Source: Streptomyces davaonensis JCM 4913 (lineage in GTDB: Bacteria; Actinomycetota; Actinomycetes; Streptomycetales; Streptomycetaceae). Taken from it: a stretch of 64,000 nt of DNA. The DNA lies in assembly GCF_000349325.1 (NCBI RefSeq), contig NC_020504.1, positions 3,506,053-3,570,052 of the forward strand. Direction: 5' to 3'. The translations under genes were made by a program, and so were the position numbers. The notes under the pieces were generated by a model that was not told the origin of the DNA, did no database searches, and was given only the letters and a program-made list of their open reading frames with translations. Shown here one piece after another: positions 39,706 through 42,281 of the stretch (position 1 is the first letter of the stretch; each line of letters opens with the position of its first letter).

Positions 39706-40878
39706 CTACGTGGTGCGCCGGGTGACGAACTCGGCCAGGGCCAGCAGGCCGCCCGCCGACTCCGGTTCGGGCACCGCGCGGGCCAGCTCCTGCATGGCGC
39801 GGGCCATCCGGTCGGCGGCCTGGACCTGCGCCCAGTCCCGCCCGCCCGCCTGCTCCACCGCCAGCGCGGTACGCGCGGTCTCCTCCTCCGCCGCCATCCC
39901 GCCCTTGCCGTACGGCACTTCGTACAGCTCGGCCAGCTCCGCCGCAGCCGGGGTGCCGGAGGTGAGCGCGGCGACGACCGGCAGCGACTTCTTGCGGGCG
40001 GCGAGGTCCGCGCCGGCCGGTTTGCCGGTGCGCCGCGGGTCGCCCCATATGCCGATCACGTCGTCGATCAGCTGAAAGGCGAGCCCGGCCTCACGGCCGA
40101 ACGCGTCCATGGCCTCGACGTCCTCCCGCGTGGCACCCGCGTACAGCGCGCCGAGGGCGCAGGCGCAGCCCAGCAGCGCTCCCGTCTTGGCCTCGGCCAT
40201 GGCGAGCGCCTCGTCGAGGCCGACCTCGCCGCAGGCCCGCTTCTCCATGGCGGTGTCCGCGTGCTGCCCCTCGCACAGTTCGACGACACAAGCGGCGAGC
40301 CGGGCGGCGGCCGCGGTGGACGCCGGATGCGGGTCCTCGGCGAGCAGTCGCAGGGCGAGCGCCTGGAGGGCGTCCCCGGCGAGAATCGCGTCGGCGTCGC
40401 CGAACACGGTCCACGCGGTGGGCCGGTGCCGTCTGGTGGTGTCCCGGTCCATCACGTCGTCGTGCAGCAGCGTGAAGTTGTGCACCAGCTCCACCGCCGC
40501 CGCGGCCCGTACGGCGGCCTTGCGGGCCGGGGGTCCGCCGAGCGCCTCGGCCGCGGTGAGGACGAGCGCGGGGCGGATCGCCTTGCCCGCGTTGCCCGTC
40601 GCGGGGCTGCCGTCCGCGTGCTGCCAGCCGAAGTGGTAGAGCGCGGTCCGGCGCATGGCACCCGGCAACGATTCGATGGCAGACCGCAGTTCGGGGTCGA
40701 CGGACCCCCGCGCGCGCTCCAGGATCGCCATGGCCTCCTGCCCGTCGAGCGGACCCGGCCCGGCGTGTGTCTGGGTCCCGATGGGCCTCCGCCTTTCACG
40801 CGTCTCGCTCGGTCGCCGTACCCCGAGGATGTACCCGCCCCGGAGGGCGGGGACACCGGTTGCCGGGGGCTGGGTCAC
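39706..40878 (-). CDS. Polyprenyl diphosphate synthase, probable encapsulin cargo
   Basis: 390 residues. Isoprenyl synthase fold with first Asp-rich motif D140-D141-V-M-D144 (LLHDDVMDRDTTRRHRP), substrate Lys/Arg in GNAGKAIRPAL and GKPAGADLAARKKSLP, and second motif D272-D273-V-I-G (QLIDDVIGIWGD), where the final Asp of DDxxD is replaced. It condenses isopentenyl diphosphate with an allylic diphosphate; product length unknown. A 45-residue disordered N-terminal extension (TRERRRPIGTQTHAGPGPL) precedes the fold. Such extensions load cargo in family 2 encapsulins. GTG start overlaps the eshB stop. Confidence 0.92.
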   Translation of the reverse strand: MTQPPATGVPALRGGYILGVRRPSETRERRRPIGTQTHAGPGPLDGQEAMAILERARGSVDPELRSAIESLPGAMRRTALYHFGWQHADGSPATGNAGKAIRPALVLTAAEALGGPPARKAAVRAAAAVELVHNFTLLHDDVMDRDTTRRHRPTAWTVFGDADAILAGDALQALALRLLAEDPHPASTAAAARLAACVVELCEGQHADTAMEKRACGEVGLDEALAMAEAKTGALLGCACALGALYAGATREDVEAMDAFGREAGLAFQLIDDVIGIWGDPRRTGKPAGADLAARKKSLPVVAALTSGTPAAAELAELYEVPYGKGGMAAEEETARTALAVEQAGGRDWAQVQAADRMARAMQELARAVPEPESAGGLLALAEFVTRRTT

Positions 40879-42281
40879 TGCCAGCGCCCGATCTCGACGT
40901 TCTCCAGCACGCCGAGCGCGTCGGGCACGAGGACCGCGGCCGAGTAGTACGCGGTCACGAGGTACTTGATGATCGCCTGTTCGTTGATGCCCATGAACCG
41001 CACCGACAGGCTCGGCTCGATCTCGTCCGGGATGCCGGACTGCTGGAGTCCGATGACACCCTGCTCGGCCTCGCCGGTACGCATGGCGATGATCGAGGTC
41101 GTACGGGCCTCGGTGACCGGGATCTTGTTGCAGGGGAAGATCGGCACACCGCGCCAGGTGGGGATGCGGTTGCCTGCCATCTCGATGGACTCGGGGACGA
41201 GCCCGCGCTTGTTGAGCTCGCGGCCGAATGCGGCGATCGCGCGCGGGTGGGCGAGGAACAGCTTGGTGCCGCGACGCCTGCTCAGCAGCTCGTCCAGGTC
41301 GTCGGGGCTGGGCACACCGTCGTGCGGCTGAATCCGCTGGTCGTACTCGCAGTTGTTGAGCAGGCCGAACTCGCGGTTGTTGATGAGCTCGTGCTCCTGG
41401 CGCTCCTTGAGCGCCTCGACGGTCAGCCGGAGTTGCTGCTCTGTCTGGTTCATCGGCTGGTTGTAGAGGTCGGCCACGCGGGAGTGGATGCGCAGCACGG
41501 TCTGGGCGATGCTCAGTTCGTACTCGCGGGGGCGGGCCTCGTAGTCGACGAAGGTGTGCGGGATGTCCGGCTCTCCGCTGTGGCCGGAGGCGAGTTCGAT
41601 CTCCTTCTCGCCGTACTTGTTGGCGCGCTGCGCGGGGATCGCGCGCTGCGCCTGGAGATGCTCGCGGAGCGAGTCGGCGCGTTCCGCGACCTGCTCGACG
41701 TCCTGGCGGGGCAGGACGAGGACGGTGCAGCCGGTGACCGTGCGGACCGTGTGCTCCCAGATGGCGTCCTCGGCGAGCAGGGCGTGGTCGCCGAGGTAGG
41801 CGCCGTCCGCCAGCACTCCGAGGGACTCGTCGTCGCCGTAGGGGCCGGTGCCGACCTTCTCCACGCGGCCGTGCGCCAGCAGATAGACCTCGTCGGCGGG
41901 GCTGCCGAAGGAGGCGAGCACCTCGCCCGCGGCGAGTTCGCGCTGCTGACAGCGCTGGGCGAGCTCGGCGAGCACGTCCTGATCCTCATAAGAGCGCAGC
42001 GCGGGCAGTTCGCCCAGTTCGGCGGGGATGACCTCGACCCGGTCACCGGTCTTCACAAAGGTGATACGGCCGTCCCCCACGGCGTAACTGAGGCGGCGGT
42101 TGACTCGGTAAGTGCCGCCCTGCACATTCACCCACGGCAGCATGCGCAGCAGCCAGCGTGAGCTGATCTCCTGCATCTGGGGTGCGGACTTGGTCGTGGT
42201 GGCCAGGTTCCGCGCTGCGGCAGTGCCGAGACTCTGCTGCGGCTTGCTCTCGTCAGTGCGGATCTCTTCGCCTACCGACAT
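40875..42281 (-). CDS. eshB: Family 2B encapsulin shell protein with inserted cyclic-nucleotide-binding-like domain
   Basis: 468 residues. Residues 1-95 form the N-terminal arm and first part of the HK97-type shell fold; 96-215 are a CAP-ED/cNMP-like beta-barrel (ASFGSPADEVYLLAHGRVEKV, DGAYLGDHALL, TVTGCTVLVL); 220-468 return to the shell fold (FVDYEARPREYELSIAQTV, FLAHPRAIAAFGRELNKRG, SVRFMGINEQAIIKYLVTAYYSAAV), each quoted in part. Known as EshA/EshB in Streptomyces, where EshA affects ppGpp levels and antibiotic production. It is expected to self-assemble into a protein shell. GGGAGG precedes ATG 42281. Confidence 0.92.
   Translation of the reverse strand: MSVGEEIRTDESKPQQSLGTAAARNLATTTKSAPQMQEISSRWLLRMLPWVNVQGGTYRVNRRLSYAVGDGRITFVKTGDRVEVIPAELGELPALRSYEDQDVLAELAQRCQQRELAAGEVLASFGSPADEVYLLAHGRVEKVGTGPYGDDESLGVLADGAYLGDHALLAEDAIWEHTVRTVTGCTVLVLPRQDVEQVAERADSLREHLQAQRAIPAQRANKYGEKEIELASGHSGEPDIPHTFVDYEARPREYELSIAQTVLRIHSRVADLYNQPMNQTEQQLRLTVEALKERQEHELINNREFGLLNNCEYDQRIQPHDGVPSPDDLDELLSRRRGTKLFLAHPRAIAAFGRELNKRGLVPESIEMAGNRIPTWRGVPIFPCNKIPVTEARTTSIIAMRTGEAEQGVIGLQQSGIPDEIEPSLSVRFMGINEQAIIKYLVTAYYSAAVLVPDALGVLENVEIGRWQ

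Follow-up and report, generated by a model that had tools for sequence, protein, structure and literature searches.

The eshB locus

The window, that is the whole stretch of 64,000 nucleotides that was analysed (G000:C1:3506053-3570052), carries on its minus strand a shell gene, eshB, followed by the gene of a polyprenyl diphosphate synthase. The features discussed below are, in the order of the window's numbering:

39706..40878, minus strand: polyprenyl diphosphate synthase, predicted cargo, longest open reading frame of 390 aa (NF041169, PF00348)
40447..40461, minus strand: first Asp-rich motif of the synthase, DDVMD, preceded by Phe at -5 and Thr at -4 (synthase alignment)
40729..40731, minus strand: ATG of codon 50, an alternative start from which the enzyme would lack the tail, preceded at a distance of 2 nt by AGGAGG (sequence)
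40735..40818, minus strand: residues 21-48 of the tail, with ERRRPIGTQ, which align with the tail that long-tailed relatives have (alignments)
40819..40878, minus strand: residues 1-20 of the tail, whose aligned counterpart in the nearest relatives is intergenic DNA (DNA alignments)
40834..40851, minus strand: intercistronic hairpin CCCGCCC-TCCG-GGGCGGG, inside codons 10-15 of the synthase open reading frame (hairpin scan)
40875..42281, minus strand: EshB-type family 2B encapsulin shell protein, 468 aa (NF041163, PF19307)
41679..41942, minus strand: cNMP-binding-type domain inserted in the shell protein, residues 114-201 (PF00027, E 4.7e-16)

The shell protein reaches 772.6 bits against the NCBIfam profile of family 2B encapsulins (NF041163, cut-off 400, positions 1-450) and 457.7 bits against PF19307. 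A single family 2B model covers its residues 17-466 and the PF00027 match falls inside, at 114-201, which bears out the description in an earlier note on this DNA of shell sequence flanking an inserted cNMP-type domain; both open reading frames and their coordinates were also correct there. Judged by these matches the shell, whose sequence is of the virus-derived HK97 type, is a family 2B encapsulin of the eshB type, an identity that holds and a class that is already known. Its assembly is predicted from similarity in sequence to solved shells, the closest chain being 9bhu_A (E 2.5e-197).

The phosphate-binding Arg is canonical in cNMP binders. At this position the inserted domain has a Trp, as do all of the EshB shells that were aligned (159/159), and for a related domain in Streptomyces lydicus the binding of cyclic nucleotides is expressly denied (PMC12407261). 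Regulation by a cyclic nucleotide is thus disfavoured. We also observed a match to the Rfam family RF02735 (Sernc350, a Saccharopolyspora antisense RNA; 128.3 bits) on the plus strand at 41743-42239, antisense to the shell gene, for which the conservation of the shell coding sequence alone may account.

The synthase scores 490 bits against NF041169, the model of family 2 encapsulin cargo polyprenyl transferases (cut-off 450), and 358.1 bits against NF045549 (GGPPsyn_IdsB), below the cut-off of 475. Both NF041163 and NF041169 are thus passed above their cut-offs, and this supports the earlier suggestion of a family 2B shell with the synthase as its predicted cargo. Phe at -5 before the first Asp-rich motif is present in all 163 synthases compared and Thr at -4 in 162 of the 163, and the string HNFTL-HDD is common to the synthase and the GGPP synthase 5jfq. 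A Phe at -5 before DDxxD without an insertion is a chain-length rule that points to C20, and by this rule the product is probably GGPP (C20). The AlphaFold2 model of the synthase has a mean pLDDT of 86.5. The genome (9.56 Mb) holds five polyprenyl synthases and two family 2 shells.

Gene junction and chromosomal setting

The two genes overlap in the sequence GTGA, as had been noted earlier, where the last base of the final sense codon of the shell gene is followed by its TGA. Of 161 loci, 115 have this stop context and 45 an overlapping start codon with an open synthase frame, and translational coupling at GTGA was therefore rejected as a feature that these operons conserve. In the window the overlapping GTG is the sole in-frame start upstream of the synthase core, the next being the ATG of codon 50, and a ribosome-binding site ahead of the GTG was not recognised in a simple scan. 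Translation of the synthase may start at either of the two. If it starts at the GTG, the N-terminal extension has 48 residues and not the 45 first proposed. No T-run terminator was found between the two genes.

The five neighbours examined in the window (RibD-like, TetR, GNAT, PALP and Na+/H+ antiporter) include no terpene cyclase. The earlier remark that no such cyclase is adjacent is right for these five, but two EshB-type shells elsewhere adjoin a geosmin-synthase-like cyclase (see below). In the 64 named loci whose flanks were complete, PALP has relatives in 64, the antiporter in 63, the open reading frames at 45559-45984 and 44763-45311 in 60 each, GNAT in 46, the RibD-like gene in 36 and TetR in 25. 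Since these neighbours recur, eshB and the synthase occupy a fairly stable chromosomal place.

Pairing of shell and synthase

The loci compared were chosen by similarity and are not a random sample. They comprise the best 80 of 478 matches, 30 taken from a genome listing (one of which is the window), 60 regions selected from listed rows at 68-75% identity, and the window itself; removal of eight with an identical 900-nt core reduced the 171 loci to 163. The listed rows passed over include G781 and G783, both with an internal TGA, G720, G779, G810 and those between the first 30 and the chosen ones, and L038-L048 were excluded from the count.

A shell gene lies upstream of the synthase, on the same strand and within 3 kb, in 161 of the 163 non-identical loci; the stretches examined of the other two, L091 and L220, showed none. 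A synthase match at E 1e-80 was obtained in 162 of 199 genomes of the genus, some of these matches being at paralogue level. The shell was tested in 40 of the 199 genomes, with a threshold of 70% identity that was set after the values had been seen. An EshB-type shell at this threshold was present in 20 of 20 synthase-positive genomes (72-90% identity) and lacking in 18 of 20 synthase-negative ones, the two exceptions being G690 (74%) and G726 (80%).

No synthase match was found in the 7 kb examined around the shell of either exception. It was instead possible to observe a geosmin-synthase-like cyclase adjoining both shells (L253 in G690, L254 in G726). The cyclase of G726 lies downstream on the same strand and scores 1176 bits against NF041168, just under the cut-off of 1200, while that of G690 is divergent and upstream, with 656 bits for the piece tested; it matches as two pieces in different frames. 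Both shells branch within the EshB tree, at separate places. In G718 (L255) a 69% identical shell, outside the EshB clade, has a cyclase directly downstream. As EshB can stand beside a cyclase and without the synthase, the pairing is not absolute.

Two of the 40 genomes, G688 and G725, were the sole ones with no shell match at E 1e-150; they are also the two of 61 with no geosmin synthase match at E 1e-80, and G725 is 82% complete. A search of plasmids returned three records of 72-76% identity, none of them covering 80% of the query.

The synthase tail across orthologues

The putative tail of the window synthase, of 48 residues and with pLDDT below 50 for residues 1-44, may correspond to the disordered N-terminal domain of 50-100 residues proposed for the NF041169 type, but it is not conserved in the shell-adjacent orthologues. 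When the loci were split at 77.5% core identity to the window, into a long group of 103 and a short group of 60, the median of the scored tail was 36 residues in the former and 14 in the latter. The start codons were picked by a simple score and several picks in the long group resemble internal starts, so that the long-group tails are underestimated in places. A start was scored for 59 of the 60 short-group loci, and 56 of the 59 tails are of 20 residues or less (the other three are 26, 39 and 40). Of the 103 long-group tails 12 are this short, 10 are exactly 22 residues and 23 have 45 or more. Any in-frame start that would yield at least 45 residues is lacking in 50 of the 60 short-group loci and in 28 of the 103 long-group ones. 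The 60 synthases fall into one clade of 61 in the synthase tree, together with the long-group L157 (support 0.993), and the shell tree does not exactly reproduce the short/long split.

Tails are also found on synthases with no shell in the stretch examined: 37 residues (L006/L070), 56 (L072) and 89 (L079). L006/L070, at 1.73 Mb, is the window genome's own paralogue of the synthase and lies a long way from either shell. The other synthases of this kind have 28 residues (L056), a doubtful 143 (L075) and, for the remainder, 3 to 27; since they are mostly short at the N-terminus, longer tails may nevertheless be more frequent next to the shells of the long group. Shell-adjacent synthases of other genera have tails of 11 to 71 residues. 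Two long tails have a repetitive look, L110 (scored at 270 residues) and L189 (110), which is perhaps a sign of fast turnover.

The earlier note had taken the extension for a cargo-loading tail and had set its restriction to EshB-adjacent synthases beforehand as a test. This restriction breaks down in both directions, as there are shell-adjacent orthologues that do not have the extension, and a similar one is present on some synthases for which the stretch examined shows no shell. These comparisons of sequence weaken the loading-tail claim, and the tail as a conserved loading tag was rejected as a general rule.

Origin of the window's tail

Between the shell stop and the conserved synthase core there are 234 nt in L083 and 232 nt in L084, but 140 nt in the window and in L164. 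The window is thus 92-94 nt shorter here than its near orthologues, and according to the DNA alignment the stretch that is absent, in L164 as well, carries the relatives' synthase start (ATGGGTGAGTTCATGA..). With that start missing, the window's open reading frame begins at the GTG that overlaps the shell stop, and it therefore crosses about 20 codons aligned to the relatives' spacer before it joins their tail. On these alignments the window's tail is partly made of former spacer DNA.

A comparison between the window and L164 showed differences of 2/3/5 at codon positions 1/2/3 in codons 2-20, with four of the seven changed codons non-synonymous, as compared to 15/8/51 in the synthase core. 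Residues 2-20 thus give no sign of constraint at the protein level; the numbers are small, and such constraint is still possible. Codons 21-24 have five base differences and codons 25-48 only one.

The hairpin within this region is identical in the window and L164 (codons 10-15, zero differences). Of 102 long-group loci, 59 have a stem of at least 7 GC pairs no more than 60 nt past the shell stop, as compared to 5.8% of dinucleotide shuffles and 2 of 102 synthase-coding windows, and stems of at least 9 GC pairs at this distance occur in 27 of 55 short-group loci (shuffles 1.8%). Loci with less than 40 nt were left out of these counts, and the thresholds were set after examples had been seen. 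A GC-rich hairpin past the shell stop is thus present in about half of the loci, in 60 distinct strings of which many vary only in the loop. As a 71-nt RNA the hairpin region of the window is not unusually stable (z -1.40).

The N-terminal arm of the shell

The N-terminal arm of EshB, SLGT(A/S)AARNLATTTK, is encoded at 42189-42245 on the minus strand. The consensus published for cyclase cargo is GPTGLGTSAAR, and its LGTSAAR resembles the SLGT(A/S)AAR of the arm. In geosmin-synthase-like enzymes the loose pattern GT[SAG][AG] was found in the linker or the C-terminus in at least 22 of 31 loci, and a strict pattern in at least 11 of 31; these are lower bounds because some linkers (at least that of L257) and many one-letter C-termini were wrongly cut. 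From this likeness the cargo label of the cyclases could imitate the shell's own arm. The pattern is also present in two enzymes with no shell beside them, L267 (G701) and L270 (G700), whose genomes have their only shell match, taken at E 1e-150, on another contig. It is therefore no marker of shell-adjacent enzymes, and arm mimicry was rejected as such a mark and stays a lead. The word 'mimic' was not found in the encapsulin papers that were text-searched.

Discussion

The reading that we prefer, at a probability of roughly 55%, is that of an eshB-type family 2B operon in which the synthase is held in the shell and the disordered tail is not a conserved loading determinant. EshB protomers would assemble into a small icosahedral shell and display the cNMP-type domain on the outside, near the two-fold pores, as in the solved relatives. 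The downstream gene would make an isoprenyl diphosphate synthase. The Phe at -5 and the DDxxD with no insertion make a GGPP synthase probable, and the conserved pairing and the family models suggest that the enzyme is held inside. The hairpin just past the shell stop may lower the expression of the synthase relative to the shell. With a tail that is short in a large group of orthologues and in part former spacer in the window, loading, if any, has to rest on a feature common to tailed and short-tailed synthases, and the folded core or the first helix are candidates for this.

It is also conceivable that the tail is the cargo-loading domain in the long-tailed Streptomyces, by way of a short ERRxPIG-like motif, and that the short-tailed orthologues have lost packaging or never had it. 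Disordered N-terminal domains are indeed the published proposal (PMC8346489), and the window and L164 differ by one base in residues 25-48. An ER[RH]x[PSHRT]I-like motif recurs in 31 of the 103 long-group loci, at a variable distance from the core, and in none of the 60 of the short group (0.2% of shuffled tails; three hits in one other frame), which implies that some tails may be under selection. The pattern was, however, framed after the tails had been inspected, the loci are related, and 72 of the 103 long-group loci do not have it. Ten scored tails in this group are exactly 22 residues long, and tails of 37-89 occur on three synthases that have no shell in the stretch examined. We consider this explanation doubtful.

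A slightly less probable one is that the synthase is co-transcribed with EshB and not encapsulated, while the shell serves another cargo or cargoes in trans, for example geosmin synthase. The two EshB-type shells that adjoin a cyclase and have no synthase, and the 69% identical shell of G718 with its cyclase directly beside it, fit this, as do tails that are not tied to shells; a pairing in 161 of 163 loci and in 20 of 20 genomes argues against it. A further idea, which combines retention of the synthase with these partner swaps, is that EshB shells take up prenyl synthases tail-free through the folded enzyme and have exchanged prenyl and geosmin synthase cargo in the course of evolution. We regard this as unlikely.

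For the recruitment of prenyl synthases by family 2B shells, the paper on the class identified no conserved targeting motif (PMC8346489), and by the present comparison the disordered tail, the obvious candidate, is not a conserved label. The natural short-tailed and tail-bearing orthologues, together with the two partner swaps, are material for a direct test of recruitment. The comparison of tails, the two swaps and the hairpin are what is new here; the type of shell-synthase pair has already been published.

Comparison with known systems

In Streptomyces coelicolor the synthase downstream of eshB is presumably SCO5250. The shell gene itself, SCO5249, is up-regulated during development (PMC3878966), with log2 values of 2.9, 3.2 and 2.4 in a transcriptome table of mycelial stages (PMC3610822), and SCO5250 is raised 4.4-fold on glucose (PMC7494193). 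No encapsulin work on this pair was recognised in the literature searched for SCO5249, SCO5250 and EshB, nor any experimental work on an encapsulated prenyl synthase in the open-access journal literature searched.

The second shell locus of the genome (G000:C1 near 9,229,000) has a family 2B shell followed by a cyclase that matches f2_encap_cargo2 and a GPP methyltransferase, a layout that we take to be of the EshA / 2-methylisoborneol type. It differs from the window in its shell (58% identical), in its cargo and in its chromosomal place. The family 2B shell of S. lydicus is a two-component T=1 particle with external domains over the two-fold pores, and unlike the window its system has two shell proteins and a xylulose kinase (PMC12407261).

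The closest known system is the class of family 2B operons whose cargo is a polyprenyl transferase. Andreas and Giessen described 900 such operons in 2021, of which 888 are in Actinobacteria (PMC8346489). The window is like this class in that a shell with an inserted cNMP-type domain shares an operon with a polyprenyl transferase whose N-terminus is disordered. It is unlike it in the tail, since the class is described with disordered N-terminal domains of 50-100 residues, whereas 60 of the 163 orthologous loci compared here have a median of 14 and the tail in the window is, by alignment, partly former intergenic DNA.
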